Below, piece after piece: positions 11,531-60,657 of a stretch of DNA of 64,000 bases. The notes below the pieces were generated by a model that was given only the letters and a program-made list of their open reading frames with translations, ran no database searches and was not told where the DNA came from. Position 1 is the stretch's first letter, and each line of letters opens with the position of its first letter. The stretch is from Persicaria tinctoria (lineage: Eukaryota; Streptophyta; Magnoliopsida; Caryophyllales; Polygonaceae). Where the stretch lies: the NCBI GenBank assembly GCA_037127255.1, contig JBANSL010000016.1, positions 8,992,501 to 9,056,500 on the forward strand. Reading direction: 5' to 3'. The translations under genes and the position numbers were made by a program.

Positions 11531-12421
11531 CTAGTACGATTCCCGCGCCATGGCGCATTTTTTTTAAAACTAAAATATTATATATAAAAATATTATAAAA
11601 TATTAATAAATGTTAAGATAAAAATCATAAAAATACTTTAAAACAAATGTATCTTATAATTATCTCAGAAAAATTATTTTTAAAAGATCTCATGTAAAGT
11701 ATAATACATAAATATAGATATTTTAAATTACAAAGCAATAATAATATCAATATCATTATAGCATTGTTTAAATGTGATGTGTCATAATCAATAGTTTTAT
11801 TCAATATTTTGAATTAAGCCCAATAGTTAGTAAATAAATTAGATTAATCGCAATAGTTATATTAGATTGAATTCAATGTTTTGAATTAAGCCCAATAGTT
11901 AGTAAAGTTAAAGAAAAAGGAGAATTAAAGGAAAAAAGAAGAAAAAAGGAGAATTAAAAAAAATTCAAGAAAAATGGAAAAAAAAATGATTAGTTAAGAC
12001 TCCTAAAACGCCTCTAAGATTGACATGTCATCATAAACTCTTCTAAATTAAGAGTTTATATAGATATAGATAGTTAGTAAACTTAAAGAAAAAGGAGAAT
12101 TAAAGGAAAAAAGAAGAAAAAAGGAGAATTAAAAAAAAATTCAAGAAAAATGGAAAAAAAATGATTAGTTAAGACTCCTAAAACGCCTCTAAGATTGACA
12201 CGTCATCATAAACTCTTCTAAATTAAGAGTTTATATAGATATAGATATAGATAGTTAGTAAAACTAAATCAAAAAGAGAATTAAAGGAAAAAGAAGAAAA
12301 AAAATTAGAAATAAAGAAAATCAAAGAAAAATGGCAAAAAAAATTATTGGTCAAGACTCCTAAACTTACTCTAAGCTTGACACGTCATCCTAAACTCTTC
12401 TAAATTAAGAGTTTATATAGA
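11531..12421 (-). mobile_element. non-autonomous Helitron with repeated 5' ends
   Basis: On the minus strand the 3' terminus shows the Helitron pattern: a GC-rich hairpin TGCGCCATGGCGCG, then about nine bases, then CTAG at 11534-11531, followed by T in the flank. The 5' terminus on the minus strand starts TCTATATAAACTCTTAATTT at 12421, preceded by A, so the element sits between A and T as Helitrons do. The 5'-terminal module (with its small palindrome CTCTTAATTTAGAAGAG and GACACGTCATC) occurs three times, ending near 12065, 12240 and 12421. There is no Rep/helicase gene. Confidence 0.75.
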
Positions 12422-12760
12422 TTGAGAAGGCAAATGACATATATTTTGAATTGGAGAGAGTGTGATTTACTATTCAACTAGTTTACGTCCACAATAAACT
12501 TATCTCTAGATATATTCTAGGATTAAAGAAGTTAATACGAGAAAATTTTCGACTCTTTTATTTAAAGAAATTATGCACAAGGTGCTGGTTATATACTAGT
12601 TAAGTATCTAAACTAGAATGTGAAAACTCAAATTGAACTCTTAAATTTATGGGTTTGAAGTTTGAACAAGTTATTTTTGACCGGGCCGAAAATGATCTTA
12701 ATCCAACGGCCCAATACCTACAACAACGGCCCACAAGTCATTTTCTCGTATTAAAAAAAT
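12422..12760. other. spacer without recognisable features
   Basis: This is AT-rich DNA between the Helitron and the Pack-MULE-like element. The last bases before 12761 are an A run that may be part of the target duplication of the next element. Confidence 0.4.
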
Positions 12761-13099
12761 GGAAATTTGGCGAGGTGCCCTGATGTATTATAATTTTCGC
12801 GAAGTATACAATTTTTTTTTTTTGCATATTTCGCGTAATACCTCTGAGGTTTTGATTTTTTTCGCGTCGTGCCCTCGGGGTTAAATTTTAACGGATGGAT
12901 AGTTAGTCTGTCACTTTTGTAATTAAAAAAGAAAAAGAAAAAGAAAGAAAGAAGACTTGAAAGAAAGCAGAAAGAGAACGACGCGAGGAAGAAGCCCTTC
13001 CAATCCTCGCATTATCCGACCCGATTCACTGTTCCTTTCATCAATCCACTCGGTTTTCTGATCTGGGTATCAATTAGTCTTCGTTACTAAACACCAACT

Positions 13100-13280
13100 A
13101 TGGCTGCTTCTGGGACTGCGAGGAAGAGGGAGAGATAGAATCCTTGCGGGGTTTGCGGCCACTACCATAAGTACAGGGAGGGTGAGGTTTGCGGCCACCG
13201 TATGTCGGCGGCTTCCAATCGCTCCTCAATCCAAGTCAGTGTCTTTGCGACGGAGATTCTGCCAGACTTTCTCTTCCTTC
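13100..13280 (+). pseudogene. captured fragment of an IBR5-type dual-specificity phosphatase
   Basis: Reading from the ATG at 13100, the frame gives MAASGTARKRER, a stop, then NPCGVCGHYHKYREGEVCGH, then RMSAAS and later QVSVFATEILPDFLFL. In my memory of the family, plant IBR5 phosphatases begin with this Cys/His cluster and the EILPEFLYLG motif at the start of the phosphatase domain. The stop (TAG where CAG would read Gln) and the loss of the sequence after LFL show that this is a fragment, not a gene. No catalytic HC(X)5R motif is present. It lies inside a Pack-MULE-like element. Confidence 0.75.
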
Positions 13281-13469
13281 GATTGAATTGGACGACAATT
13301 TAACCAAGGAGAATGAGATGGGGAGAGAAGGGAGCCTTTGGAGTTCCGATTAAGGACAAGAGAAACCCAGAGGAACGCATCCAAAATCTACTCCCTCTCC
13401 CTAATCTCCTTCCTCCCCCAATTTTAATTCTCTGAATCCTTTCTTTTTCCCCCAATTTTAATTCTCTGA

Positions 13470-14220
13470 GGGTGTGTTTGGTAATGATATCTAGTGTTTG
13501 GTTGGGGCAAGGTATAGATATCAAGTGATATCCTGATATCACTTGATATACTAATCAGACTCAAAACTGATATCCCCCAATTTTGGGAGGTATGGAACCC
13601 TGATATCAAATATCAGATTCTCGCCTCTCGCCGTCTTCTTGCGCTCTCTCCCGGACGCTCTTCGCTTCTCGCCTCTGCTCGCCCTCTCCACTGCTGCACG
13701 CTGCTCTTCGCTTCCTCAGGTACATCTCCTCCTCCTCTCCTCTTCCTCTTCCCTTTCCCTGAGTCGGACACCGCCCTTCATTGTACGCTGCACGCTGCAT
13801 CTTTCCCTGAGTCGGACATCTCCTCTACACGCTGATGCACGCTGCATCTTTGTTTTCTTCTTGGTTTGTTGCTGAGTTTTCTTCGTTTATCCTGCCTTCG
13901 TTGTTGTTGCATCTGGGTTTTCTTCTTGGTTTGTTGCTGCATCTTTGTTTTCTTCTTCAATCGTTGTTGCTGAGTTTTTGCCTAGGGTTTCTATTTCAAT
14001 CGTTATTGCTGAGTTTTATTCAATCCAAAATGTCTGATATCTGATATCTAGCAGCTCATTACCAAACAGCATATAGATATCAAAACTGATATCTGATATC
14101 TAACAACATACCAAACAGGAATATCAAGATATCAGCTGATATCGATATACTTGATATCGATATCGATATCGATATCGATATCTGATATCTGATATCTAGA
14201 TATCATTACCAAACACACCC
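13470..14220. mobile_element. Harbinger-type MITE rich in GATATC palindromes
   Basis: Perfect inverted ends GGGTGTGTTTGGTAATGATA (continuing a few bases further) are flanked by TGA on both sides (13467-13469 and 14221-14223). GGGTGTGTTTGG resembles the ends of the 7-kb Harbinger element at 40821 (GGGCGTGTTTGG). Both inner ends carry dense GATATC/GATATCTGATATC runs, while the centre (about 13620-14030) is CT-rich and gene-like without a known domain. It interrupts the Pack-MULE-like element, so it is younger than that element. Confidence 0.8.
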
Positions 14221-14222
14221 TG

Positions 14223-14390
14223 AATCCTTTTGACTCCGCCGATGAGGTCTCCCTTGCCTATGACGCCACTGCTGTCTCGCTCCATGGTCCCAAGGTCAAG
14301 ACCAATTTCCCCCAATTTCAGCTTCAAAACCCTAGCCATTTCCAATCGCATCCACATGCCATTTTCCCTCATGATTATCATCACCACTGA
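14223..14390 (+). pseudogene. captured fragment of an AP2/ERF transcription factor
   Basis: The frame starting at 14223 reads NPFDSADEVSLAYDATAVSL followed by HGPKVKTNFP, then a Gln/His-rich tail and a TGA. The pattern AYDxxAxxLHGxKxxxNFP is the C-terminal half of the AP2 DNA-binding domain. The N-terminal half (the YRGVR region) is missing. The piece starts directly at the right edge of the inserted MITE, and the upstream part of the domain was not found on the other side of it. It is a captured, non-functional fragment. Confidence 0.75.
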
Positions 14391-14429
14391 TTCAACAATG
14401 ACAATCACGGCGGATTTCATCCTCGGCAT

Positions 14430-14765
14430 CCCCAAGTCCCAGCGGCGAGCGGCTTGAGTAGCACCGTGTCCGTGATGAGGAGGCCGCCGAGGAGGAGGAG
14501 GAGGGAGGGGAAGGCAGCGCCACCGAGGGAGTAGCGCCAACCTCCCGGCGGCGAGGAGCTTGAGTAGCACTTTGTCAGTGATGAGGAGGCTGCCGAGGAG
14601 GAGGAGGAGAGAGGGGAAGGCGGCGTCGCCGAGGGAGTAGCGCCAACCGTTGGGGTGTATGGTGGAGGCGAAGTAGTTGACCCCATTGGCGATCAGGATT
14701 CTGATCATCACCAGTAGTTGGAAGAGGATGTTCACCGCTCCTTGTACTCGATCGGCGCTATCTCT
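14430..14765 (-). pseudogene. captured fragment of a hexose (STP-type) transporter
   Basis: The minus strand reads VQGAVNILFQLLVMIRILIA, then NGVNYFASTIHPNGWRYSLG, and then a hydrophobic stretch with LLGSLLITD. STP-type sugar/proton symporters have a very similar run in transmembrane helices 5-6 (NxLFQLxxTxGIL, ANLVNYxTxKIHPxGWRxSL, FLGSLxxxxTP). The last part, around PSLLLLLG-LLITD, is present twice in tandem (about 14460-14535 and 14563-14645). There is no start, no full set of helices and no other transporter motif. Confidence 0.75.
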
Positions 14766-15023
14766 CTCCGCTTCCTTTCTGAGCCTTCTTTCTTTTTTTT
14801 TTCTTTCTTTTTTTAATTCCAAAAGTGACGGACTAACTATCCATCTGTTAAAATTTAACCCCGAGGGCGCGACCCGAAAAAAATCAAAACCTCAGGGGTA
14901 CCACGCGAAATATGCAAAAGAGTTGTATACCTCGCGAAAATTGCAATACCTTAGGAACACCTCGCGAAATTTCTGTAAAAAAAAATTGACCTGAATTTTA
15001 AAGTTGTCAATTTAAGTATTTAA

Positions 15024-29633: not shown

Positions 29634-30848
29634 ATGACTAAATCAGTTTAGAAAATGTTGTTTTCCCCACTTCTGATTGCAACTCTCAATGACTAAATCA
29701 ATATCATAACTTTATCCAAATAGTAAATTAGTTGTTCTTAAGCAGACATTAAACAAATTAATGCATATTTTAATATTTTATCTTACAGTAATTGTTTCAA
29801 GTGGCTACTTCCCACCTACTTTTATATAAATATATTGAGATTATTTATGATGAACTTTAACCGCTAAATTGTTATCAAATGTATAGTTTTCGTGCTTCAT
29901 ACTAATATTTATATTTAACACCACAAACATTATACAATTAACCTTTTTATTGCTTCTATTGATTCTGAAATTTAATTTATCGTCATTGTAATAAAGAAAG
30001 ATGATGTTTATTCAAATTAATATGATATATTATGATTTCTAATATTAATTTTAAAATGATTAAATTAAATAAATGAGTAATGTTAATCTAAAAAGGATAT
30101 TTCTAACTGATGAGAAAGCCTAAATTGACTAAATTACATCAAAATGATTACATTAATCTAAAAAGCAATGTTACATCAAAATGATTAAATTAAATAAATG
30201 AGTAATGTTAACCTAAATTGACTAAGTTGAGTTCAGACGATGGATGCAAATCATGGAAACCAATCAAAACATCAATCGGGTGAAGAAGATGTTGATGTAA
30301 GTTTTAATTTTATAGCAAGATTCAATTTTTATACCTTAATTTGTACGCCATATTGGTTGATCGGCCCTCCAATAACCAATTTTCCTTTTTAGATTAACAT
30401 TACTCATTTATTTAATTTAATCATTTTAAAATTAATATTAGAAATCATATATTATCATATTAATTTGAATAAACATCATCTTTCTTTATTACAATGACAA
30501 TAAATTAAATTTCAGAATCAATAGAAGCAAGAAAAAAGGTTAATTGTATAATGTTTGTGGTGTTAAATATAAATATTAGTATGAAGCACGAAAGACTATA
30601 CATTTGATAACAATTTAGCGGTTAAAGTTCATCATAAATAATCTCAATATATTTATACAAAAATAGGTGGGAAGTGGTCACTTGAAACAATTACTGTAAT
30701 ATAAAACATTAAAATATGCATTAATTTGTTTAATGTCTGTTTAAGAACAACTAATTTACTATTTGGATAAAGTTATGGTATTGATTTAGTCATTGAGAGT
30801 TGCAATCAGAAGTGGGGAAAATAACATTTTCTAAACTGATTTAGTCAT
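29634..30848. repeat. large inverted repeat, two arms of about 465 bp
   Basis: The left arm 29634-30097 starts ATGACTAAATCAGTTTAGAA and ends AATCTAAAAAGGA. The right arm 30383-30848 is its complement with only scattered differences. A 285-bp spacer (30098-30382) separates them and contains partial extra copies of the inner end (AATGAGTAATGTTAACCTAA). This could be a foldback transposon or a hairpin-RNA locus. There is no open frame of note. Confidence 0.85.
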
Positions 30849-31798: not shown

Positions 31799-32446
31799 TT
31801 CTCAATTGGTAAAACTGAATACAAACTACAACTTTTCATTCTCAATTACAGTTATTGTAACTGCTTCAAGTTCAAATATTGATTTTCAGAACGGAACAGG
31901 TGCTGGCGGAGATACGGTGGGGCTGCGACGACGACTTGTGGCCGAGACAACGACGGCGAGACAAGGCGGATCGACGGCGGTGCTGTGGAGGTTTTGCAGT
32001 GACGGATTCGACGACGGCGAGGCCTGGAAATTGGAATCGAGAGATTGAAAGGGCGACACCATGCTTATGAGTGTGGCAACGGTGCTTGCGATTCTTTAAG
32101 GTCTACATCATCGTCGATCGTTATATCGCCGCCGACGGCAAGGACTGCTGGAGTTTCGACATCGACGAGGCGCTTCTCTAAAATCTTCTCCGCTACGATA
32201 TACGGTCCATAGCTTCGGGTGCGCCTTCCCCTTTCCTTCCTCTCTAACCCTAACCTTTGAATTTCGCCTTTGAAGGCTTACATTGGACGATTGATTCGGT
32301 GATGAGAAATTGTTCAATTTGGTTGATATGATCATTGTTATAAATTCGTGAGTGTGGACATCTGATCTGAGTTGATTTGCAGTAATTTCGAATCCTCCGC
32401 AGATACTGCCAAATCCATCACACTCATCATTGCACCACCTTCAGCC

Positions 32447-34392
32447 ATGGCAAATGTCCCAATCAGCACCACCACAAACAACGATCTACTCAACCGCATC
32501 ATTGATTTTATCTGGGATCTGGACTACGAGCAGAATCTCATTCGCCAAGCTGAGGAAGCTCTGTCTTCCGGTAAATTCCTGAACAAGAAACAAAAAGAGG
32601 CCCTCCGCTCCAAGGCTGTTGTTGCACATCACATGAACTTGCTTGAGAACCTCTACTACCAGTTGTTCAATGCGAATCCGAGGACTGCTAATCTATCCAT
32701 CAAGGAGGCGGATGAGACTGATCCATCTGCCAACCCCACAGATCGACCAAGTGTACAACCAAGCGAATACGTTGGGCAGTCCAAGGCCAAGGTATTGCCT
32801 TGGACTCGTGACTCTTTTCTATTATACTTTGCTCTAACCTCTTGACTCCAATCTTCTTGAATTGTGCAGTTAGAAGAAAGAGTTTGTCATCTGTAGGTAG
32901 CTACTAGCTAGTGTAGTTGAAATGTCTTATATACCATTAACATCTACAAGAAAATGATCAGAATTTTTGCATCAGTTTAGTTTTATACCTATTTTAGTTA
33001 TCAACTTGTTGGCAAAGTTTGATTTTGACTATGTATTTTAATACTTTAGGAATTCAGGTCAAACATGGATGAACATGAGACTAGGGAGGTTGCAAGCCTG
33101 GATGAGCCACACTCACTTGACAAGCCAAAGTTTCCGTGTGTTTCAGATGGCCTTGTCATCTGTTGCTTGGAACTCAAACACAGCAACCACCAGTTGAGCC
33201 ACACTCACTTGACAAGCCTGGATGCTGCTTGCGTACCGGCCCTTTCTAAAGCCTCTACCCTCAAGATGGTGGAGGGGGGACGTCTTATCTCAGCAGGCTT
33301 GTTCAGATTGGGTTCTGATGCATACCTCATTGGTGGACAGGTCCTTCCAAAGCAACCAAATCCTTCGGATGTTAGGGCAGCCCGCTATCCCTGGGGCTTG
33401 GGTCATTACGAGTTCCTCTTGAAAAAACACGGTCTCGACTCTCGATGGCATATCCCGTTCCATCCAGGGCTTGTCTGTGGATGGCAATTGGCAACGATAT
33501 TCTCTCTGTGCGTGGGTGCAATATTCCCAATCTGCAGGATCCCAAAGTCTGGCCTATAGTCGAGAAGATTGCTGGCATAATACATGTGATCTCTTCCTTT
33601 CCTCGCGCGATTCTTCACTGCTATAGTGGTGAGGAAAGTTCCCATGAGTTTCTCAACTTGGATGACAGTAAGGGTTGGACCAAAATTCCATCTATCACCC
33701 ATGGAAGAATGACAGGCATATACTCTCACTTGGTGGTGGGCAGCCGCATCTATGCACTGGGTTCCAGAGGTATTATGATGTTTGACTCCAAGACAGAGCA
33801 ATGGCAAGAAATCGAACACAATATTAAGCGTAAGCATCCCTCCTTGATCAGAAGAGTGTGGCAACTTCTTCATGATGGAAAAGGAAGGTGTGCAGGAGAA
33901 TTTCCGATTCCACCCGGAGAATCAAGTGATGACTCCCTGTTTGTGGTAATTGCAGTAGTGTGTAATGTTGGGACTGTAGATACTATAGCTACTACCTCAT
34001 GGATGGTAGCCTACCTTGTCACCTCGACGGGGGTGGTTCTTTGCTATCAGCGTTTGCGTGACTTCTTTTTGGGAGAGCTGCAGCCTACGCTGATCAGGGT
34101 GAGTACGGTGATTAATGTTGATGAGCAGGGAAAGACGATGTGTGTTGTGGTTAATGGAAAATCATTTACCAAATTCGGCGAAATGAATCACCTTTTCATT
34201 ACTACGTTTAGTGTGGAGGTGATTCCTGAGGCCTACGCCAAGGTGCGAGGAATCTGGAAAAAAATAAAGATGGGTGGAGACCCTCCTATTGAGCTGGAGT
34301 TTGTGAGGGTCCATGTGGATGACAGGTATGTATACAAGATGGAGACAAGTGATTTAGTCGAGATTAAATTTATGCAAGCTTGCTTCCCGTAG
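32447..34392 (+). pseudogene. kelch-like gene, copy A, frameshifted by two 7-bp tandem duplications
   Basis: Exon 1 (32447-32791) starts at a well-placed ATG (GCCATGG) and reads MANVPISTTTNNDLLNRIID, a helical N-terminal part. After an intron with GT/AG borders, exon 2 (33050-34392) follows in frame (EFRSNMDEHETREV...). Two segments look like kelch blades of a beta-propeller: SAGLFRLGSDAYLIGGQ and LVVGSRIYALGSRGIMMFDS with KTEQWQEIE. The exon 2 frame breaks between 33433 and 33495. There, two tandem 7-bp doublets occur (TCTCGAC/TCTCGAT and TGGCAAT/TGGCAAC) where copy B has single units, and together they shift the frame by 14. The 3' part is open to the TAG at 34392. No F-box was recognised; the function is unknown. 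Confidence 0.7.
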
Positions 34393-35278
34393 TATGTTGC
34401 AAACTGTTGTTTAACTTGCAGGTTGGTGTTTAGTTTACTTTTGTTGAATTGATGAATTTCTAAAAATATATGGTTTTTTGATGAACCAAAAAAAATATAT
34501 GGTTGTGTTAGAGAGAAGCATACATTATATATGTTGATTTGATGGAATACTCTTGTGCATTGTGCTTCAGACTCACAAGTTGAAGTAACATTACTAAGAG
34601 TTTATGCTCTATATAATGATGAAACATTTCTGTATGCGATTTTTACAGTTTTTGTCTTTGCGATAAGGGTTGTTTTTTGAAGCTAACTGCCGAGAAGGGG
34701 GCTCAGTGTGGATATATTGATGGGGAGAGGAAGTGACTTCATAACCAAATCTGGTCGAGGTGAAAATTTAGCCTTACCAAATCTAATCCAGGTACATGGA
34801 TGTAGCCTCATCGGATCTATCGAGGTGATCACGAATTAGCCTTACCAAATCTAATCGAAGGTAGCCTCATCGATTCTAATCAAGATGACTAATTGACTAT
34901 ATAATCTTCTCGAATCTGGTTGAGGTGATGATGGAACCCTGGTACATTTGTAATTTCAAAACCTTGGTTGAGGTGATGATGGAAACAAGGAAAAATGGTC
35001 TTTTTGGCTATTTTTAATGGAACCCAAACGAAATAGTTGGGTAGGTAGTTCTTTGCAAACGCAATTGTTTTAATGGATGGTTTCTGGTAATCATGAATAT
35101 AAGAGGTGATTTAGGGCAATATGAAATATATAAGGGGTGGTTTTACGGATTTACATTTAAACAAAATGCCAAATTTTGCAATTAAACAAAATTTTCGGTC
35201 AAATGCTGAAATATAAACAAAATGGAAATTTTTGTAATTAAACAAAATGAAGGGTCAAATATTGTGAACATAATTAAA
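34393..35278. other. spacer between kelch-like copies
   Basis: It contains a repeat shared with 25862-25950 (GAAGCTAACTGCCG near 34680) and, from 35043 to 35272, the second copy of the duplication flank at 30860. TAATTAAA at 35271-35278 is the left target duplication of the MULE that follows. No gene is seen. Confidence 0.6.
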
Positions 35279-35497: not shown

Positions 35498-35853
35498 GAG
35501 CCTGTGCAGGTAACCAATATGGAATGACTTTGTCTGTCCCATCATCAACGGAAATGCAGATAGCTAGATCGGAATGAATCAAAGCGCATTGATCGAAGTG
35601 CCCACGAAGCCTGTGTAGGTATGGTCGACATATTACACCGAAGAGTTTACTACTAAGGATACGTTTAAGAGTAGGGAGAAAGCTATAGAATGGGTAAAGA
35701 ATAAAGGCAAAGACAATCAAATGTGCATTGTGATCAGACGTGTTGTCAAGAGTACTGCGATTACACTTGGGCGGACATGGATGTATTGCGAAAGAGAGGT
35801 GGCGTACACACCTTTGAAAGATGACGTCCATAAACGCGTGAAGACGGAAAAAC

Positions 35854-36537
35854 GTGGATATATGTCCATTCGAGTTAAAAGTTTTAGAGAGTGAAAGGGG
35901 GTATTGGAAGGTGCAGATGATAGTCAGAATTCACAACCACGAGATAGGCAAAAGTTTGCATGTGCATGCGTTCGCCGAAAGGCCTACAACAGCAGAGCAT
36001 GAGTTGGTTAAAGCCTTGACCAAAAACCATGTGAAGTCGAAGAACATTTTCTTAGTCCTTCATAAGAATCCCGGGAATGTGACAAAACTAAAGCAAGTAT
36101 ACAACTTAAGAGGTAGCCTCCGAAAGCAGGGTCTGCAGAGGAGAACCGTTCCCCAACAATTTTTTGTCAAGGCTATGGAGTTGAAGTATTTTGTGCGACA
36201 CAGAACAGGGCCAGGCTCATCGGTTTTAAGTGACATTGTTTGGGCACATCCTGATTCTATAACATGTGTGTTTATGAGCGGGGAAAAAGTCGAAAATTAC
36301 TCGTGGGTTATGGGTGTCATAGGTGAACTTCTCAACTTGGTCAGAAGGTATCCTGCTGCCATAGCCACCAACAGAGAGCTCGCTTTGATTAATTCCATTA
36401 AAGTTGTCTTTCCACATAGCAAAGAAACTTACAAAACACGTGAACCTTGTAAATATGTTTGCGAGGGAGTGCATGTCTTTACTCTGGTCACAGACCGAAG
36501 GGCAGTATGTCAACGGATTGACTCGACTACATACTAA
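35854..36537 (+). pseudogene. MULE transposase remnant
   Basis: The 227-residue frame begins MDICPFELKVLESERGYWKV, followed by HNHEIG, and includes the block EKVENYSWVMGVIGELLNL and then AIATNRELALINSIKVVFPH. The CPF...W...HNH pattern is typical of the FAR1-like N-terminus of MULE transposases. NRELALINSI...VFP matches the end of the DDE core (usually D-R-E-L-A-L). The DDE core between them is mostly missing, because the frame passes directly from the N-terminal region to the ENYSW region. Upstream, 35640-35850 continues the same protein in other frames. It cannot be active. Confidence 0.75.
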
Positions 36538-37852: not shown

Positions 37853-39047
37853 TTGAGGGAGTGTTTGAATAATGTGCAAACACCACGCCACACGGTGCTT
37901 CGGGTGCGCCTTCCTCTCTAACGACAGTTGCTTTTGTTTAGCGTATTCGACACTACTAACTCCGCCCGTTTTTTGATTCCCAACCCCAATTTTGCTTTTA
38001 GCATGAACCCTAATCCGTTTTTGCATTTTTGCGTTTAGCTTGAACCCTAACCCGTTGAAAAAAAGAGTCGAAGAATCGAGGAGGCAAGCAAGATTTATAC
38101 CACCTCTGCTGGAAATAGGTAATTCTTCATCGCTCTTCTATTTTCTTCTTCCGTTTGATGCTTCTGTCGGTGTTATTTGCTTGCTTCTTCTCTGTTTTGC
38201 TGTTGGAATTTCGATTGTTTTGCTGTTTGCTTCTTCTTCTGTTGGAATTTCGATTGTTTTGCTGTTATTTGTTTGCTTCTTTATGCTTCTTGGCCTGATC
38301 GATGCTTTTGAATGGAGTGGCAAAATGGGGTTTATGCTTATGTTGGTTTATGCTTCTTGGCCTGAATGGGGTTTATGCTTCTGTGATCTGTCGCTACTCG
38401 GTTTCTGTAGCCTGTTGTCAGTTTTTGTCAATTAAGGTGGATGGGGACATGGGGTTTATGCTTCTGCTGCTGTCGGTTTTTGCTATTGCACCCGAAATCT
38501 TGGCGTGATGTTGAGTTTTTTGTATCTTCTGCTGTTGTATCTTCTTCTGGTGTTGAGGTTTTGTGAGTTTTGTGAATGTTGAGGTTTTGTGAATCTTGGC
38601 CTAATGTTGAGGTTTTGAATGAAATTGAGCTTATTCTTTTATGTTATTGAAATTGAGCATTTTCGACAATGAAACATGTGAAGACCGACATTCGCAACAA
38701 AATGGCCGATGACTTTCTTGTAGATGCTTTGATCATTTATATTGAAAGAGAGCTTGCTAGTAAAATTGATATAAATTCTGTTATAGATGACTTTGCTAAG
38801 TCAAAAGGTTGTCATGTTCGTTTTATTAATTAGTTGATATAAATTCTGTTATAGATGCTTTGATCATTTCTTGTTGATGCTTTGACCATATGAACACTTT
38901 TTGCAATGATTTTGGTGTTGGAAAATTTGTAGATCAATTTATGCGTTCATGTGTGTGGACATCAGATCTGAGATGATTTGCAATTGTTTCGAATCCTCCG
39001 TAGATACTGCCAAATCCATCACACTCGTCATTGCATCACCTTCAGCC
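37853..39047. other. upstream region of kelch-like copy B
   Basis: GCTTCGGGTGCGCCTTCC at about 37895 is shared with 32212 upstream of copy A, so this is the duplicated 5' region. It includes a T-rich leader (38100-38500) and, at 38949-39047, DNA matching 32350-32446 of copy A with a splice-acceptor-like TTGCAATTG/TTTGCAGTA difference just before it. Open frames here are low-complexity and not convincing. Confidence 0.5.
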
Positions 39048-42000
39048 ATGGCAAATGTCCCAACCACCTTCATCGATCACATCCGTAGTCTACAATACTA
39101 TCAGAATCTCATTCGCCAAGCCGAGGAAACTCTCTCTTCAGGTAAATCCCTGGACAAGGAGCAACAAGAGGCCCTCCGCTTCAAGCCTATTGTTGAACAT
39201 CAAATGGACTTGATTGAGAACCTCTACAACCAGTTGCTCAATGCTGATCTATCCATCAAGGAGGCGGATGAGACTGATCCATCTGCCAGCCCCGCTGATC
39301 AACCAAGTGTACAACCAAGCAAATCCGTTGGGCTGTCCAAGGCCGAGGTATATTTGCCTTGGACTTGTGAATCTTTTCTATTATACTTTGCTCTAACCTC
39401 TTCTCTTTCAAGTCTTGATATGAATTTGACTCCAATCTTCTTGAATTGTGCAATTAGAAGAAAGAGTTTGTCATATGTAGGTAGCTAGTGTAGTTAAAAT
39501 GTCATATATACCAGAAAATGAGGCTTGTGATTGCGAGTTTCAGAATTTTTGCATCATTTATCTTTTGTGGATGACATCATTTGTTTAGTTTTATACCTAT
39601 TTTAGTTATGAACTTGTTGACAAAGTTTGATTTTGACTATGCATTTTAATACTTCAGGAATTCAGGTCAAGCATGGATGAAAATGAGACTAGGGAGGTTG
39701 CAAACCTGGATGAGCCACACTCACTTGACAAGCCAAAGTTTCTGTGTGTTTCAGATGGCCTTGTCATCTGTTGCTTGGAATTCAAACAGAGCAACCACCA
39801 GTACGAGGATGCTGTTAGCGTACCGGCCCTTCCTAAAGCTTCTTCCCTCAGGAGTCAAGATGGTGGGGGAAGGTCGTCCTATCTCAGCAGGCTTGTTCAA
39901 ATTGGGTTCTGATGCATACCTCATTGGTGGACAGGTCATTCTAGAGCACCCAAATCCCGCAGATGTCAGGGCGGCCAAGCACTATCCATGGGGATTGGGT
40001 CTTTACGAGTTCCTCTTGGAAAAAAATGGTCTCCGTGGCTTATCCCGTTCCATCTGGCGCTTGTCTGTGGATGACGACGGTATTCTCTCCGTGTGTGAGT
40101 GCAGTATTCCCAATATGGAGGATCCCAAAATCTGGCCTATAGTCGAGAATATTGATGGCATAATACATGTGATCTCTTCCTTTCCTCGCAGGATTCCTCG
40201 TGTCTATTTTGGTGAGGAAAGTTCCCATGAGTTTCTCAACTTGGATGACAGTAAGGGTTGGACCAAAATTCCATCTATCACCCATGAAAGAATGGAAGGC
40301 ATACACTCTCACTTGGTGGTGGGCAGCCGCATCTATGCACTGGGTTCGGGAGTTTATATGATGTTTGACTCCAAGACAGAGGAATGGGAAGAAATTAGAC
40401 AGCATATTAAGTATAAGCATCCTTTCTTGATCAGAATAGTGTGGCAACTTCTTTCTTTTGGAACAGGAAGGTGTAAAGGAGAATTTCCAATTCCAGCCGG
40501 AGATTCCACCAAAAAAAAAAGAAAAAAATTCGACCCGGAAAATCAAGTGATGACCGTCTCTTTGTGGTAGTTACAATGGCGCATGATGTTGAGGATTGGG
40601 ATTTCAATACTCCCACATGGATTGTAGCCTGCCTTGTCACCTCGACGGGGTTGGTTATTTGCTATCAGCATCTGCGTGACTTCTTTCCGGGAGAGCTGCA
40701 TCCTGTGATTACCATGTCGGGTACAGTGATTAATGTTGATGAGGAGGGAAAGACGATGTGTGTTGTGATTAACGGAACATCAATTGCCAAATCTGGCGAA
40801 TGGAATCATCTTTTCATTAAGGGCGTGTTTGGCTGGGGTGGAAAGGGTGGGGGAGATACCAAAATTCGCCTAGGGAAGCGAGCCGGAGTGTTTGGCGGGA
40901 GGTGGCGGGGGTGGCGGAAATGGAGGTGGAAGGGATGGCGAGGGTGGATTTTGCCCAGATTTTGGTACCTTCGATTTTGGAGTGGGCGGGGGTGGAAGAA
41001 TTTTGGTACCCCGTAACGCCCATTTTTGCCCTTGGATCCGACGCTTCGGCTTCTCATAGAAGACTGGATATATATCATCATTCTTCATCGCCTCTCTCAC
41101 TTCTCCATTTTCACTCTCGAAGGAACTCGCCAGGTAACCCTCTTCGCTCTTCCTTCCTCCCTTTGTCCTCCATTGCAGTCCTCCATCGACGACAACGCCC
41201 TAATTATTTATCTCTTCTTGTTCTTTGGAATCACAGGTTGTCGGAATCGCAGGTGTTCATCTTTCTCTCGAACAAGGTCGAGCCTTTCATCCACCACTCA
41301 ATGTAAGTACTTCTCTCTGCTCTTCTCCTTCTTTTGACTCAAAAACCCCGCCAATGTAACCCTAATCCCCAATATTTGAGAGCTCCCTCTTCCCCTAAAA
41401 CCCCAAAATCGGAGACTCCATGTTCAAATTCAATAATGAAAATGTCGTATGTTGGTTGTCTATTGCTATGCACATGTCAGAGATGAGATGGTGTGAGTTT
41501 TGTCTTCAATGGTTTGCAACTGTCATACCGGATCTGTAAGGTTTTTTCATTGTCGATTGTGTGTGCTTTTTTGTTTGCAGGGTTGTCCTTTTATCACATG
41601 TTTTTGTTTATGTGTCTGTATGCAAGGGTTTGTCTTCTTGTGCTTTTGTTTATTAATGGTTGTTTATGGTTTGTCTTCTTATGAAATTTTTTTGTTCATG
41701 CTTTTTTGTCAATGGTTTCTGTTGTTCTGATGAGGGGGGTTAGCTTAGGAGTTTCTTCTCGTCAGTTTGGTTGAGGGTTGGGTTACTGCATTGTCTTCCT
41801 CCTAGGTTCAGTTCATGGTTGTTGTGCTGCACAAAACCCATCAAATTTCACACCTCATTTGCCATTACACAACCATTATGCTGTCATTTGTTGTTCCAGT
41901 TTCTCAATCTGTCTTGCAGGTTGCTTATAATCCTATGCTTTCATCCATGATTTGTTTCACTGGATTGAAAAATATTTGATAAGGATGTGAGGGTGGGAAG

Positions 42001-42294
42001 TGAAAACGCCCTAAAATCTGGATAGCACATACATATTTGATTGAATGAACATCTCACATAAGCATACATATTTGATTGTAGGCACCACGTATATGTTCAT
42101 GCCTCCCCACTTGTCTTTGCTTTCATGCTCTTCAGTGGAAATTGATTTGTTCATGTTCACCTTCTCATCCTTTTCAATTGTTATCAACTTTGTAATGTCC
42201 TTGGTCTTCCTCGGATATGGTGGGAATATGTTGTTGTTTGCCTCATCCTTTCCATATTAATATTGTCTCTAACACGTTTGTTCTCCCTCAAAGC

Positions 42295-42885
42295 ATGTAC
42301 CCTTACTCCGACACGGACGAGGACTCTAATGCCAGCTATCAGTCAGGCGACCCCGACAAATATTGGTGGATAAGGGGGGATTACCCTTATGGAGACCCGT
42401 GGGTCGAACACGAGGCGGAAGTCACTGACGAGGATGAGGTGCAGTCTCAGCCCCCAGTAGTACCTGATCTCAACGAAGAGTTGGATGAGTACCGCGAGCT
42501 TGTCAACGATCTCAAAGCTGATATCGTGGAGCTCCGCGCACAGGTTGCCACACTCCGGGAGCGTGACATTGCCCGAGAGGCTATTCTCCATATCAACCAA
42601 CAGGATCTCCACAGGGTTGATGAGGAGTTAGCCATCACCGAGGCATCCAAGCTCGAGCTTGCTGAGAAGCTGACCAAGGCTGAGGCCGAGTTGGCCATCT
42701 CTGAGACGCCCAAGAAGGACCTTGCTCAGAGGGTGTCAGAACTTGCTACCTTCCTGTGCGGGACGTGGGCTGATCATGCTGCCGACACCGTTCGCATCAA
42801 GCAGCTGCTACGCAAGAGAGGCATCAATCGTTGGATCCTCGTCCTCCTCATGGGTGTCATTGTCAGGCTCGCTGGAGGTAAGTAG
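42295..42885 (+). CDS. coiled-coil protein encoded inside the Harbinger element
   Basis: The ATG at 42295 opens a 196-codon frame. The first 60 residues are acidic and aromatic (MYPYSDTDEDSNASYQSGDP, then KYWWIRGDYPYGDPW). Residues about 60-150 form a strong heptad-type coiled coil (ELDEYRELVNDLKADIVELR, then AQVATLRERD, LAEKLTKAEAELAI). The end is a short hydrophobic stretch (WILVLLMGVIVRLAGGK) that could anchor it in a membrane or simply be buried. No family is recognised. It is not one of the two usual Harbinger proteins, and codon use looks constrained, so a captured host gene or a third element gene are both possible. A splice acceptor-like CTCCCTCAAAG just precedes the ATG. Confidence 0.65.
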   Translation: MYPYSDTDEDSNASYQSGDPDKYWWIRGDYPYGDPWVEHEAEVTDEDEVQSQPPVVPDLNEELDEYRELVNDLKADIVELRAQVATLRERDIAREAILHINQQDLHRVDEELAITEASKLELAEKLTKAEAELAISETPKKDLAQRVSELATFLCGTWADHAADTVRIKQLLRKRGINRWILVLLMGVIVRLAGGK

Positions 42886-44007
42886 GCACGTGTGGTTGTA
42901 ACCCTTGTTCTTCTAGACTTGTTGTTTGGTTGACGAAATTGTTATCGTGCGCCCCATTTTGTATTTTGTGTGGTATGGTGACACGACTATATATATGACT
43001 GCATTATGATACCCATCGAGCACCTGGGCAGTATAGGTTGTTTTTTGGGTCGTCAGGTGCTCCGTTGAACCATGTTTATATTATCGTTGTTGGACCCTGA
43101 CAATGGTGCTATCAAGCACCCCTTGTATGTAGCATCCACTATTCGGGTGCAGGTAGAAGACTCTAAGCTCGTATTGCATCTATCAAATTGAGTCGATGAA
43201 CAAATGACAAAACAGAAATGAGTCATACGAGTGTGTTGGATTGCTCGAACGAAAGCATAATATGTTACAAACTACTTCCAAAAATAAGGAAACGCCACAA
43301 CCTTTCCTACCACAACCATGTTGTCTGAACAATGGAGGATCACACACACACAATTCACAATGATCAACACACTCTACGAAGGCAAACACTTTCGTCTTCT
43401 GTAATGACAGAAAACAGCCAAACACACAGCACAATCAACCTTGCTAACAGCCTTACTTCATTACTGAATTGAACCACACTGACGTACTCAAAACACATGA
43501 GCAACTTCTCGACACAACTGTCGTCCACTCTCCCACTGAAAACAGTCCAGCAACATGTGCTGAATACAACCAACTTAACTAACATTTAACTTAGACTTTA
43601 AACTTAAACAAAAGCTTGATCACACAATACATTTAACAAACCATAAGAGTCACATCTGCTAAGCACCCATCATGTACAAAACCAAATTGCATCCTACTAG
43701 TTTCGTGCAATCGCCGAACACATAAGGCATATGTCCCTACCTTAACGGAGATAAATTCCATGCCTGCACCCATCATGTACAAAAAAAGGTTGCATCCTAA
43801 TAGTTTCGCGCAATCGTCGAACACATAAGGTCACATGTCCCTAGCTTAACTTGTCACAGCATCATGCCTGCACCCGTCATGTACAAAATGTGGTTGCATC
43901 CTACTACGTAACTGCAATCACAAACCACTTGCCGTAGGTCCCTAGGACATAGAGTCACACCATCAACCACAAAAAGAAGTTGCACCCTACTACGATGCCC
44001 ACCGGCA

Positions 44008-45399
44008 TCATCTCCGGGGTCGTTGGTCATTCCATATCTGCTGAGCAATAGTGTCACGAAGAGCCTTGATTCCAATGGCTGGTGGCTCCTCTTCTGGCTC
44101 GAACAGGCCGTCCACCTCCATCTCATCTGCACCTTCTGGGTGGTCATACGCATCATCCTCGTCTTTGTCCATTGCATCATCCGGCTCTTGAAACCTGGAC
44201 TCGTCCTCGTCATTCACATCGTCTCTCCAAAGACGTAGAAGGTTGTGAAGGGCGAAGCAGCAGTTTATGAGCGACACTTGTCGTGCGACTGAGTACTTGG
44301 GCATCCACCGGAGGATCTTCCACTGACCCTTAAGAACACCGAATGCTCGCTCAATAGCTCCGCGAAGTGACGAATGCACCTTGTTGAATGCTTCCTTGAG
44401 GTTTTTAGGTTGTGCCGCTTGGAAGGTTGGCCGGTGGTACTTTGTCCGCGAGTATGGCACCATGTACCCATCTCGGTCCGGGTAGCCCTTGTCACATAGG
44501 TAGTAGCGACCAGCAGGGGGTGGGGGAAGTTAAACCCTGGTGTCCGATGGGCGTGGTCAAACACACGTGCATCGTGTGCACTCCCCTCCCATCCGTTTGA
44601 GATGAAGGTGAAGATGAGGTCGAAGTCGCAAACAGACATGACGTTGAAGGTGCAAATCCCTTTCCGGCGTCGGAATGGAATCTACTCGTCGATAGGGATG
44701 GTGGCTTGGATATGGGTTCCATCGATGGCACCTATTGCACCCTGCATGGGAGAAGTAAGGTGTTACGACCATAAGTCATCCATACATGTAGGAAACGGTC
44801 CCATGTAAAATTGTTACCTTGAAGTACGGCCAATAACGGTTGTCGTTAACGATTTGCTCGGGTACCCGGCGGAACTCGGGGTCTCGTGGTTTGATCAGCT
44901 CCCTGGCGAGGCCAGTGAAGCCGTTGGCCGGGCCCCCGTCGATTGCATCACAAACGTCCCGTATCGCCTCTGAGATGGTGTAAGTGGAACGTTGGAAGCG
45001 TTCACAAGCGTTTCGCTGGCTTTGGCCCCAAGCCATTGTGTTCACAAATATTGCGACCTTCTCCATCACCGAAATCTGATTGGATCCTCGAAGTCCGTAT
45101 TTATGTTCTAGGACCCCACATAGCTTAAGATACACACGCTTCTCCATTCGAAAGGCGTTAATACTACGGACCTCCCCATCGTTATTCAGTATGTCATGCA
45201 CCCATCGTCGGCCTGTGTACTCGAAGATATAGCAAAGGATCTTGTACACTCGGGTGAAGTAGTGATGGACCACCGGGATAGACCTCTGTAATATATGGAT
45301 CATGGCAATGACGAGTATGATACCCCGTCGACGCATCATCATCGTGTCCCCATTGGAAGTGGCCCTGTGGAGGATCCCCATGATAGGAATTAACCACAA
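44008..45399 (-). pseudogene. PIF/Harbinger transposase (HARBI1-type DDE nuclease), damaged
   Basis: Exons 44819-45399 and 44008-44741 join across a 77-bp intron (AAG|GTAACA, CATGCAG|GGT) to read YFK|GAIGAIDGTH. The helix region MEKRVYLKLCGVLEHKYGLR, the first catalytic Asp (AIDGTH), the second Asp (YYLCDKGYP) and the Glu (RGAIERAFGVLKGQWKIL) are all present. Two lesions exist. A TAG at 44682-44684 falls in DE*IPFRRRKG, where Gln would be expected. A one-base shift lies in the C-run at about 44518-44531, between FNFPHP and PAGRYYLCDKG. The protein cuts and joins element DNA together with the Myb/SANT partner; this copy should not be able to do so without readthrough and frameshifting. Confidence 0.85.
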
Positions 45400-45785
45400 G
45401 TACCAAGTTTATGTTATCGTGCAAATATAAGAATGCACACCCACAAGCATACTCAACCATAACAATGCACAACCATAAGCAACACAACCATTAGCATCAA
45501 CCATAACAATGCACGACCATAAGCCAGCCAACCAAAGGAATGCACAAACAACGTTACCAATTACAAACATATAGCAACAAGTAGCATACACAACCAAGCA
45601 TAAGTTTGAAGTATGTATTCGAAAATAAGTACCATAAGGTTCATGCCTCCATTTGTCACATACAGTTGGAAATAGAAAGTAGACAACAACGCATACGCAC
45701 TAATGCACTTATGAGGACGGGAAAATGAAATGCAAATGTAGGCTACGACGTAGTTCGAAATCCTCCACCAGGGAGCGGAATGGGC

Positions 45786-47062
45786 CTAAGGACGGCCGCC
45801 ATTGAGATCATACAACCACTGCAACCACCTCACTCTCCTGTCGTTGTGCTTGATACCGACGAACAGGTCTCTGCGCTCAGGGTCCCGCATCAGCTCGACA
45901 GTGAAGCACCAGAGAGGGTCAGCGACATCAATCAAACCTTGTTGGACGGGCTCCTCAACAATGTCCAGAGCTTGGTTGGTTATGTTCACTGGCTTGCTAG
46001 TGCAGACCTCCTCCCGGGCGAGATAAGCCTTCAGCGCACCGCTTGTCTCCTTCACCGCGTCAACGTGTTCATGGTACAGCCGTGACGCCTCTGACTTCCT
46101 GGAGGACCTCTTCGCTGGTGGTTGTCCCAATGCAGAAGCGGAGTTAGCCATTGTTCGCTTGTTAATGTCGACAGGGGGTGATGACAAACCTGTTGCTGCA
46201 GCCCCATTGGTGCTGGGAACATCCCCGCAAATCCCATGGAGAACCTCCTGCATGGAAGGAGGCTGGCCAGATTGTAGTTGGCTCGCGAACAGCTCGTCTA
46301 GCTCCGTGTCGAGTGTCCCGTATTCGGTCTCTTGTGTCTGCACACCACCTCGACCATCGTCGTTGCCTCCATCGAGGTTGATATAGTCCATCCCATTATG
46401 ATCGTAGCCTTCAGCTACAGCCACCTGGGGAGCTGTTTCCCGTTGGCTGGGATCCATCGAGGGGGCAACACAGTACTTCCCGGTTGCCACAGTTCCCCCA
46501 TACAGTTGATCCCAAAGGTCCTCCAACTCGGGCTGAATACCTTTTTTTCTATACTTCCTGAAGTCGGAGTTCTCCTAAAGATATGATCCCAAGTTATGTA
46601 AAATTCAAGACGGGAAAAATTGTCAAAAACCAACAGGTAGAGGAGGGCACTAACCGCGATCTTCTTCTCCCACCACTCATCGGATGCCTTGATCGTGCCC
46701 TTCTCGGCATCCCATCCCAATCCGGTCTCAGAATTCTTTAACGATTTCCACTCGTTGTAGTATTTCTTCATGTCACGATTGCGGTTCTTCAATGTGTACA
46801 TGTTCGGCTTCTTCCCCGACAACTCCTGGAATTCTAGGGTGAGCACACCCCAGGGGAAAGGCTGGTCTCTCCCGACAACCCGCTGGTGGCGAAGGAGAAC
46901 CTCAACAAACAATTTCGTATGCTCATATGACCAGTAAAAGGGAGGGGGCGTTGGCTCATCATCGCCTCCTTGCGTCTGCTTCCCCTTCCCCTTCCCCTTA
47001 GCCTTACCACTACCCTTACCCCTTCCATTTTCGTTTGCGTTGCCGTTTCCGTTCGAAGCCAT
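45786..47062 (-). CDS. Harbinger Myb/SANT-like DNA-binding protein
   Basis: Two exons (46655-47062 and 45786-46574, donor GCG|GTTAGT, acceptor TTTAG|GAG) give about 399 codons without a stop. After a low-complexity Asn/Gly/Lys leader, the region FYWSYEHTKLFVEVLLRHQR through TLKNRNRDMKKYYNEWKSLK matches the plant Myb/SANT-like domain with its trihelix, W residues and WWEKKI end. The long acidic middle and the C-terminus (CFTVELMRDPERRDLFVGI, then WLQWLYDLNGGRP) are typical of this class of element proteins. In PIF/Harbinger elements this protein recognises the ends and helps bring the transposase to the nucleus. The start at 47062 (MASNGNGN) is the first ATG in frame. Confidence 0.85.
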
Positions 47063-48301
47063 ACGCACTTGTGGGCTAACAACGACGACACGAATGCATT
47101 GTCATCCCACACACCCGGGAAAAACAAATTCAGTCACAAATTAGAAGTTCAACTAGAGAGTAATTGTCAAAATGTTCAAAAATTTGGTCCCAATAGAAGC
47201 TGACGGGAGGAAGGCAAAACCCTAGTCGTGTGAACAACAAGTTTGGGCAACAAACATACGAATGAAAGACTGAATTCAGGCATCGGAGAACCGGAATTAG
47301 GAATCCGTTCAACAAACAATTGGAATAAAGTAAGCAATTTCAACCACACGAAGACCGACCACATAAAGGAGATACAAGTACGGGAACTCACATGGTGAGA
47401 AGACGATGTGGGTTTGCGGCCTCCGGGGGGAGCTGGCTTGCTTGTGGATGATCTTCCCTTTCAAACGCCGGCGGATACCACGGTCGTCTTCACCGACAAT
47501 TGGAGTCCCGGTCGACCCTCTTCTTCCTCCTCTCGAAACTGGGATGGATGTTGGGGCCGCTTCTGGTTTTTAGGTCGAAGTAAAACGAAGGCCAAGGGTA
47601 ATTTGAGGGGCAAAATGGTCTTTTACCATCGAACAGTAAGGTCATTCTTGTAATTTGCAATATGCCCATTTCCCCGCCCATCCCCAACCTACCAAATACG
47701 CAGGAACCTTTTTTTTCAAAAAGTATCTCCATCTCATCCACCCCCAAAAAGTATTTCTATCCCCTCCACCCTCAAAAAGTATCTCCACCCCCTAAAAAAT
47801 TTCCCCCAGCCAAACACGCCCTAATACGTTTAGTGTGGAGGGGATTCCTGAGGCCTACGCTAAGGTGAGAGGAATCTGGAAAGAAGTAAAGAAGGGTAGT
47901 TCCCCTAGTGAGCTGGAGTTTGTACGGGTCCATGTGAAGGACAGGTACATATACAAAATGGATGAAGCGTTGGCGACAAGTGATTTAGTCGATATTCAGT
48001 TTATGCAAGCTTGGTTCCCGTAGTTGCAAACTGTTAAACTTGGTTAAGGCCTAAACTCTTAAGGGAGGGATTGGTGTATTAGAGTCTGAACTGAACACTT
48101 TATGGAAGGTTGATTTTGTTTTCAGGTAGAGTAGCTTTGCATTTAGGTAAGAAGGTGAATCTAATTCATTGATGGATTATCTCTGCACACTGAAAGAAAT
48201 TCAAGATTTCAAATAGCACAGTACACTGAAAGAACTCTCCATTCCTCGAGTAATGCCTAAACCATCCCATCCTTGAACGTCGGACTTACCATTTACCAAC
48301 C

Positions 48302-54825: not shown

Positions 54826-55147
54826 GAATACTCCGTATATGTGTGTTAGAAATCGGCATATGAAAATTAATACTCCACCGTATTTCGTTTTTGACATAAT
54901 CTGGAATGTTCATCATATGAGGAAGGGGCATTACTGTAATTGCAGAAACAACCATAAATAAGTTAATTAATTAAGGAATTTGTTCCAAAAACCAATTGGA
55001 GAAGACTCAAAGTCTCAAACGAAGCAAGGAATTTCGCATTAATTAATGTTGAAATGGGCCAACCCACCTGACTAAGCAAGCACATGCCCCCGTAGCCACG
55101 TCAGCAACTGTTACGCGAAACACATCACTGGAACCACTTAAATCTCG

Positions 55148-55164
55148 CCACGTGGCTTATAAAT
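55148..55164 (+). promoter_or_regulatory. G box plus TATA box (core promoter in the duplicated block)
   Basis: CCACGTGG is followed immediately by CTTATAAATC; TATAAAT is at 55158-55164. CCACGTCAG lies upstream at about 55098. An ATG at 55223 opens a 47-codon ORF (MKGNCEEARRERPKAKAPTS...) that matches no family I know. The same arrangement is repeated at 62117-62133. Confidence 0.5.
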
Positions 55165-56078
55165 CTGCTCACTTGAATAAAAATTAAAATCACGAAAAAC
55201 TTTACCCCAAGTCTCCGGCCGTATGAAAGGAAATTGCGAAGAAGCAAGACGAGAGAGGCCAAAAGCTAAAGCTCCAACATCAGGTGAAGGCCGCACATGG
55301 TGGAGTCGAAAAGTAAGATGCACCGAGGGTGTAACCATACACGAGCACGAGTCCTCACCAGCTTGAAACGCCAAAACAAACCTGCAACAAGTGAAATAAA
55401 CCACCGGTTTCGACGCTTCCGCCCTGTTTTCAGCTTCACCGGCTCCGACCTGGTTCTGTCGATGACTTCGTCTACTGGGGCTTGGTTTACCATGTTAGCG
55501 AACCAATCTCAATTCGTTTTTCCGTCTTGATGTTTTTTTTATTGTTGTTCATTTTGTCTGCTTTGGCCCGTTTTCATTCGCCTCTGTTTTGACTATCTAG
55601 TAGTCGTTTGCGATCTTGTTATCGTCCTTGAGGGTTTGGGATGAGTTTGAGTGTTTTCAGGGGCAATGGTTTGGCTTGGAGTCGGGTTTGTGGGTTGATG
55701 TGCAGTGCTATTTTTGTTGTGTTGCAGGCTTCTTTGAGTAGTGTTTGATTTGTCATGTTCGATGACATCGTGGATGTGCGTTGACATCTGATGACTCTTT
55801 TGAGTCCATAGTCTAAGGTGTCGCGCCTCTTGAGTCACACCCCTACTCCTCTTGGGTCACAGACATGACTCAAGATGGGTAGGGTCTATTTTTTTTAAAA
55901 AAAAAATGGGATGTGTGGTGTAGATAGTAAAATTTAGGGTGTATAAATCACTCCCTTATATGGTATAGTATAAGATATGGTATAGTATAAGATGGGTAGG
56001 GTCTATCTTTAAAAAAAAATAAAAAAAATGGAATGTGTGGTGTAGATTAAAATTTTAGGTGTATAAATCACTCCCTTA

Positions 56079-56435
56079 GACTAACTCCAATGGAATTGTG
56101 TAAATGCTTAAATATGCACATTTTGATGCAAATTGTGCTCCAATGATTACTTTTGAGTGTTTAAAATGTGCACATTTGCACACAAAGTGCTCAAATATAA
56201 GCACATCCCCTCCCCCATGTGCAAAAACTTTTTATCACTTTTCAATAAAGTAAAGTCATTTCTATTAGTTGTTTTTAAGTTTTTTCTTTTCCTTTTTAAT
56301 TTAATCACAATTACTTAGAGATAGGTGTATAAAATGCACATATAACCAATGGAGTAAAACATCAAAAAGTGATGTGCATTTTTAAATATCTTGTGCAAAT
56401 ATGTACATTTGCACAATTAACCATTGGAGTTAGTC
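56079..56435. mobile_element. Tourist-like MITE (copy 1)
   Basis: The ends GACTAACTCCAATGG and its complement are flanked by TTA on each side (56076-56078 and 56436-56438). The arms share TGTGCAAAT and ATGCACATT motifs. The duplicate lies at 63048-63404. Confidence 0.8.
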
Positions 56436-56529
56436 TTATATGGTATAGTATAATTATTTTACCGAGTGTTTAATTTCACAACAACAACAAAATCATTAAA
56501 AAATCAAGATAAAATAATAGTGTAAATCA

Positions 56530-56790
56530 AACAATCATAAACACTTGGTGTCAACCTTGCTATAGAGAATGTCCGTCGTGGTAGGGGACGACCTAAAAAG
56601 AAGTGGATAGAGGTGATCAAACAAGACGTGTCCTCCTTAAACTTTGAGGAAAGTAGGGTATGCGATAGGACACTATGGAGGAGGGCTTTCGGTGTCATCT
56701 CAAAAGAGTCGGGAAAAGAATGTGTATATCTCGACCCCTCAAACCCCACTCGAAGCGGGATATCCTGAGATGTTGTTGTACATAAACTTC
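56530..56790 (+). pseudogene. retroelement C-terminal fragment
   Basis: The frame reads NVRRGRGRPKKKWIEVIKQD, then VCDRTLWRRAFGV and KECVYLDPSNPTRSGIS. The pattern RGRPKxxWxxVIxxD...DRxxWRRxxxV is common at the ends of plant non-LTR retrotransposon proteins. A part of its tail (CATCTCAAAAGAGT through GATGTTGTTGTAC) is repeated at 57048-57138. There is no upstream reverse transcriptase. Confidence 0.5.
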
Positions 56791-57031
56791 GGGTTAGTTA
56801 GAGCAAGGAGAGGCATGGAGGCATAGCCTTTTTTACCTTTTTTTTTTGTATCTTTCTTGCTCTACCCACTATTCTGTCCTTGCCCCTCCATTTCTGTTCT
56901 GGAACCCACTATTCTGTCTTTGCCCCTCCATTGCTGTTCTGGAATTTGCTTTGCACCTGGTTGCGTTGTCAATTTTTCAATCTACTCCATCTATTATATT
57001 ATACTGATTCGCTACTTATTAGTCTAAACCT

Positions 57032-60584: not shown

Positions 60585-60657
60585 GATAAAATTGCACAAA
60601 ACCACCCCTTGGCCGCTGTGAAAAATGGCTTAAATAAGTGGCGTTTTTTTTTTGCAA
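60585..60657. repeat. fragment of the AAAACCACCCCTT-type MULE repeat
   Basis: AAATTGCACAAAACCACCCC resembles the ends of the MULE-type MITEs at 5359 and 5961. It is cut at 60658 by the start of the Helitron array. Confidence 0.5.

Follow-up and report, generated by a model that had tools for sequence, protein, structure and literature searches.

Jiang et al. are said to have reported on the Pack-MULEs of rice in 2004. Pack-MULEs, multi-copy families with distinct duplications, multi-locus cargo and MITEs within MULEs are described in the passages cited from PMC3310237, PMC8277862, PMC8903248, PMC13317346 and PMC3903597, and pieces from more than one locus in a Pack-MULE are reported in the part of PMC8903248 that deals with them. 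As portrayed in the relevant parts of PMC13317346, PMC8903248 and PMC8277862, the Pack-MULEs of rice and other plants resemble the element described here in being non-autonomous and present in several copies, in the captured gene fragments that they carry, and in their long inverted ends and 9-bp duplications. This element lies in a window of 64,000 nucleotides, the whole stretch of DNA that was analyzed (C16:8992501-9056500 of a 1.68-Gb plant genome).

RESULTS

Boundaries of the element

The whole element spans 12760..14975 (2216 bp), as deduced from the alignment of its terminal inverted repeats and from the comparison of its termini and flanks with those of 14 relatives. The original prediction had correctly placed an element here, with limits at 12761 and 14974, each one base short of the true end. 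Excluding the MITE nested within it and a single copy of the MITE's 3-bp duplication, the length is 1462 bp. The left (12760..12957, plus strand) and right (14766..14975, minus strand) terminal inverted repeats, both of which are also found in genome copies, are approximately 200 bp long and 84 to 85% identical. The long inverted ends that had been predicted were borne out by blastn, which paired 12762-12977 with 14761-14973 in inverted orientation (84.4% identity, E = 1.6e-61). A length of 100 to 500 bp is given as typical of Pack-MULE inverted repeats in the cited part of PMC3310237, which also reports, for rice and maize, a higher GC content in captured pieces than in the ends or flanks. 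The GC content of the three named cargo pieces here was 0.50 to 0.70, compared to 0.34 to 0.41 for the ends and 0.27 for the flanks. No Pfam match to a transposase was found in the four interior frames searched, all of them outside the MITE. An AT-rich tandem repeat with a unit of approximately 170 to 180 bp is present at 11875-12424 and, in the opposite orientation, at 60655-61798; one of these arrays finishes approximately 340 bp to the left of the element.

The termini, CGGAAATTT...AAATTTCCG, were picked by eye from the family comparison before the target site duplications were tested. Pack-MULE target duplications measure 9 to 11 bp. Flank comparison assigned the duplication of the window copy to 12751..12759 (TTAAAAAAA) on the left and 14976..14984 (TAAAAAAAA) on the right. 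It is AT-rich and imperfect, matching at 8/9 positions with slack and at 7/9 without, and a score of at least 8/9 was also reached by 12 of 210 mismatched pairs given the same slack as the real copies. Taken alone in such AT-rich DNA, this duplication would be weak evidence, while across the family the evidence is strong. The family test covered the 15 copies with two readable ends among 19 loci, leaving out C4, C1b, C16b and C16c. With at most 2 bases of slack, 7 of the 15 matched at 9/9 and the remaining 8 at 8/9, compared to 2 and 10, respectively, of 210 mismatched-flank pairs. With zero slack, 7 of the 15 again matched at 9/9 and 6 at 8/9, with 7/9 for the window copy and 5/9 for C19; the corresponding control gave 9/9 in 1 and 8/9 in 4 of 210 pairs.

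Family of related copies

When the genome was searched at the DNA level for 12761-14974, at least 148 matches were obtained; 40 of 1971 candidates were scored, making all copy counts lower bounds. Eighteen loci with element pieces, together with two IBR5 loci, were taken for comparison. Sixteen of the 18 hold AP2/STP or IBR5 sequence, and the search for copies with the same ends proposed in the original prediction yielded at least 16 other copies with related cargo (C4, C14, C19, C1a, C1b, C2, C9, C17, C5a, C20a, C3a, C20b, C5b, C16b, C3b, and C16c). Loci L025 and L026 have the common ends and different cargo. The copies are dispersed and have distinct flanks with common ends and interior. Some are not insertions of their own, since the flanks of C19 and C2, and those of L025 and L026, are related and C1a and C1b are near-duplicates (26 kb apart, 97% alike).

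Of the 16 other copies, 15 contain STP sequence, and the same 15 contain AP2 sequence, some of them only partially (73% in C3b); AP2 plus STP is the core common to the family. A leader-like segment (13366..13469, plus strand), whole or partial in most copies and with the MITE at its end, also belongs to the old core. IBR5 sequence was present in only 2 of the 16 (C4 and C16c), and another left-hand cargo is common to C14, C5a, C2, C19, C9, C20a, and C5b. In an unrooted tree built from an alignment of the right-hand part, which had 15 rows without C3b and C16c and in which the window copy was represented minus the MITE and STP unit a, the window copy and C4 were sisters (support 0.93) within a group with C14, C5a, C17, and C16b (0.96). 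Because copies both inside and outside this group share the other left-hand cargo, IBR5 is most simply a replacement and probably displaced that older cargo. The left-hand cargo of other copies includes an open minus-strand frame at L010:1966-2163 (SDYDSSHHTLIPENLFHQLQIIRATISHLTRLKQQQQ), which resembles an additional captured coding piece.

Captured gene pieces

The three gene families named in the original prediction, IBR5, AP2/ERF and STP, all matched in protein searches, AP2/ERF weakly. The IBR5 piece (12992..13279, plus strand) was deduced from protein and genome comparison to consist of the 5' leader and approximately 60 codons of exon 1, with the start codon at 13100, a TAG at 13136-13138 and a 9-bp deletion. 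With the TAG read as Q, 13100-13300 matched IBR5 phosphatases with a best E value of 5.8e-20; of the 131 candidates, 129 reached E ≤ 10, and the best 120 of these were listed. The parent gene, which had been sought on the advice of the original prediction, was represented by IBR5 genes on C1 (L027) and C11 (L028), judged from exons, in both of which the first exon is intact and open. The downstream frames of L027 contain HCMTGKNR, which we take to be the phosphatase motif, and RSPAIVIAYLM. The window piece differed from the C1 gene at 17 of 288 positions (approximately 94% alike, substitutions only), the C4 piece differed from it at 12 of 295, and the two pieces differed from each other at 25 of 286. 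The TAG, which had been predicted to replace Gln, stands at a donor GAG (Glu) codon, and the Cys/His cluster, which had been predicted to be kept, has lost one Cys to the 9-bp deletion (EVCGICGHRM to EVCGHRM). C4 has a 2-bp deletion of its own. From few changes, dN/dS was 0.33 over 58 codons for the window and 1.15 over 62 for C4.

The window copy and C4 have the same junction between the end and IBR5 and the same piece behind IBR5. Three columns were changed in both, two of which were gap coincidences and one a true substitution, common to the window, C4 and C16c. A single IBR5 capture before the split of the window copy and C4 fits these data because of the shared junction, the shared piece and the one shared substitution, and independent captures in the two copies are disfavored for the same reasons. 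C16c (L020) also has the same junction and then departs from IBR5 after codon 12 into other sequence; the base at which it departs equals the T of the window TAG, which may be chance. A short piece at 13280..13365 is also present in C4; a 69-bp stretch spanning its start recurs in L025 and L026 at 88%.

The AP2/ERF piece (14221..14436, plus strand), assigned from structure and protein matches, holds the C-terminal part of the AP2 domain, covering only its last 30 residues or so, and downstream sequence. In the window copy, it weakly matched ERF structures (E = 0.02 to 0.07) and gave no Pfam AP2 match. The piece of copy L019 matched WRI1 (2.9e-5) and ERF096 (4e-4), with a Pfam AP2 value of 0.15, which is below the cut-off, and zero matches in the protein database.

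The STP piece is antisense and consists of unit a, a tandem duplicate that is out of frame with unit b (14437..14542, minus strand), and of unit b with the remainder of the captured exon (14543..14765, minus strand), assigned from protein and genome matches. Read in antisense, 14543-14765 matched Sugar transport protein 6 (E = 4.6e-16), and the piece gave a Pfam Sugar_tr value of 4.8e-5, just above the cut-off. In the protein database, 1 of 1799 candidates matched, a Rumex transporter (E = 1.3e-13), under length limits that shut out full-length transporters. The transporter parents that the original prediction had advised seeking in the genome were found, as judged from exons, in a group of eight STP genes that are 87 to 91% identical to the piece over 193 bp (best, 90.7%). 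The internal duplication of the piece, also predicted, proved to be a 106-bp tandem duplication (14437-14542 and 14543-14648) of 89.6% identity. The 106-bp unit is single in all 15 other STP-bearing copies, and in each of the 15 comparisons with these, unit a resembled the other copy more than unit b did. Since the units are approximately 10% apart and unit a is nearer to the other copies, the duplication either is not very recent or arose from unlike copies.

The dN to STP gene L036 was 0.048 for window unit b+c and 0.052 to 0.116 for the 15 copies; between STP genes, dN was 0.007 to 0.029, and their dS overlapped with that of the copies. The dN/dS of the copies to L036 was 0.18 to 0.56, over a path that includes the constrained gene. 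Taken at face value, these ratios, the lack of nonsynonymous changes in window unit a and the window IBR5 ratio of 0.33 depart from neutrality and speak against simple decay, all of them on the basis of few changes. The candidate IBR5 and STP donors both lie on C1, at 14.28 and 14.79 Mb, and both families are also on C11. Contig pairs of the form n/n+10, namely C1/C11, C9/C19, C8/C18, C10/C20, C5/C15, and C6/C16, have STP genes in common (C1/C11 also IBR5), and this recurrence within C1-C20 looks like two subgenomes.

Nested MITE

The original prediction had overlooked a nested MITE of 751 bp at 13470..14220, probably of the PIF/Harbinger type, which makes up a third of the element. Its inverted ends are 25 bp long and perfect (GGGTGTGTTTGGTAATGATATCTAG), and flank comparison assigned it a TGA target duplication at 13467..13469 on the left and 14221..14223 on the right. 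It was found whole or in part at no fewer than 19 other places in the genome. Six of these loci were compared, five with both ends and the sixth with one end only; the 3-bp flanks were identical in four of the five (TCT, TTA, TTA, and TAA), and in L007 they were TCA and ACA. TGA and TCT differ from the usual TWA type of PIF/Harbinger target duplication. The MITE sequence gave zero matches in the 18 other element loci, and its ends were found in none of the 16 extracted copies, two of which (C16c and C3b) are without the site itself. Because of the inverted ends, the other places in the genome, the 3-bp duplications and the absence from the other copies, 13470-14220 is a later MITE insertion rather than captured cargo.

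A 7-kb PIF/Harbinger element was also observed in the window at 40821-47821, with ends GGGCGTGTTTGGCTGGGG flanked by TAA on each side; one frame matches DDE (PF13359, E = 2.7e-13) and another Myb/SANT (PF12776, E = 1.9e-12). It interrupts a gene that is present twice, the first copy at 32330-34408 and the second, which holds the element, at 38932-40819 plus 47822-48035. The end of the MITE, GGGTGTGTTTGG, and that of this element, GGGCGTGTTTGG, differ past approximately 12 bases. Other features of the window were a direct repeat of 2206 bp (54826-57031 and 61795-64000; 100% identity, 7 kb apart), which reaches the window's end and represents a recent duplication, a young LTR pair or an assembly effect, and a 466-bp inverted repeat (29634-30097 and 30383-30848; 96.6% identical) with a short spacer between. 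Rfam at gathering thresholds gave zero matches in the window.

DISCUSSION

It is very probable that the locus is a non-autonomous Mutator-like element, a Pack-MULE, which was amplified and is now decaying, with the full history proposed below. The original prediction had already read the locus as Pack-MULE-like, and this reading gained from what was directly observed: the anatomy with its long inverted ends, the family of dispersed copies with different flanks, the 9-bp duplications of that family, and donor genes for the IBR5 and STP pieces. The presence of the nested MITE was likewise observed directly. A MULE transposase provided in trans would have mobilized the element. No autonomous partner was found within the window, where a MULE-like fragment at 35842-36534 (weak MULE transposase match to PF10551, E = 5.6e-5, below the cut-off) is without Pack-MULE ends.

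The sequence in which cargo was gained and replaced is one that we infer by parsimony on the unrooted tree. Between its inverted ends, an ancestor would have taken up the AP2/ERF piece and, in antisense, a piece of an STP exon, and it would then have been amplified to many places. Within a single sub-lineage, the IBR5 5' leader and part of the first exon would have been joined just inside the left end, displacing the older left-hand cargo. Such captures may be due to gap repair or to a switch of template while the element was transposing or being replicated. The window copy also carries the 106-bp tandem duplication, the nonsense change, the 9-bp deletion and the MITE, none of which is present in its nearest relative, C4. 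It would now be a decaying fossil, in which nothing clearly indicates that a protein has been retained. That cargo was exchanged in steps, an already amplified AP2+STP Pack-MULE swapping its older left cargo for IBR5 with L020 departing after codon 12, is offered tentatively, as a reading slightly more apt to be wrong than right.

Capture of one continuous locus was rejected, as the pieces derive from different genes and do not all have the same orientation. A single capture spanning IBR5 and STP on C1 was not favored; the two lie near each other, yet are 0.5 Mb apart and the pieces are small. The difference of approximately 15% between the two ends would also be expected if unrelated debris had come to lie by chance between two independent MULE ends. 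However, all but one of the 16 other copies had the same joined AP2/STP interior, at least partly, and target duplications were found in the copies with two readable ends, so that we give this explanation almost no chance and regard it as refuted by the family.

Two further proposals concern a product of the Pack-MULE. The original prediction had hinted that a minus-strand fusion frame might give a chimeric transcript, and a chimeric gene might be in the making if transcription from the ends gave a useful fusion protein from that frame or from the IBR5 start region. The frame (14196..14891, minus strand) is open for 231 residues from stop to stop, spanning the end of the MITE, AP2 and STP in antisense and part of the terminal repeat, and exceeded the longest frame of every one of 500 shuffles (on average, 123 residues); moreover, STP unit a of the window has zero nonsynonymous changes in 25 codons. 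Against this, the frame runs across the duplication and terminates within the MITE, two features observed in no other copy, and it was absent among the two longest frames of each of the 16 other copies. The minus frames of C17 and C5a have the same beginning and then depart from the STP frame, and C9 has its own, separate 254-residue minus frame. Frame-breaking gaps occur in the STP frame of 9 of the 15 other copies and a 1-base gap in that of the window, and the IBR5 frame is broken by the stop in the window and the 2-bp deletion in C4. A long frame is also unsurprising in captured high-GC coding DNA. The minus-strand fusion gene was thus rejected as the product on the absence of the frame among the two longest frames of each other copy and on the substitutions and gaps, no clear selection for a protein appears in these comparisons, and the chimeric gene is considered highly improbable. 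Alternatively, the captured IBR5 and STP pieces could yield siRNAs acting on the donor genes. The pieces resemble those genes at 94% (IBR5, substitutions only) and approximately 90% (STP), and such action of captured sequences is reported for maize in the cited part of PMC13317346, but the copies have diverged and a small-RNA source is deemed improbable.

The preferred reading therefore remains the decaying Pack-MULE, and its family is a known kind of system, an ordinary plant Pack-MULE that leaves existing knowledge of the system unchanged. What it adds is a multi-gene family with donors for two pieces, MITE-free relatives and copies differing in the cargo of one end. Such a series of copies is useful for the question of how MULEs gain and swap sequence, called unresolved in the cited parts of PMC8277862 and PMC3310237. 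The tomato PM-ZIBP, as described in the section of PMC3310237 devoted to it, is likewise a multi-copy Pack-MULE, of approximately 1 to 1.4 kb with AT-rich 9- to 10-bp duplications, and differs in having mostly tandem ends and one captured gene. The rice MULEs with the nested Tourist-like MITE Os0548 (PMC3903597, in the part concerned) similarly show a Tourist-type MITE within a MULE; that composite was amplified and codes for a transposase, whereas here the MITE was found in a single Pack-MULE copy. Compared to known Pack-MULEs, the present family is set apart by its IBR5, AP2/ERF and STP cargo and by left-end cargo that varies among its copies.
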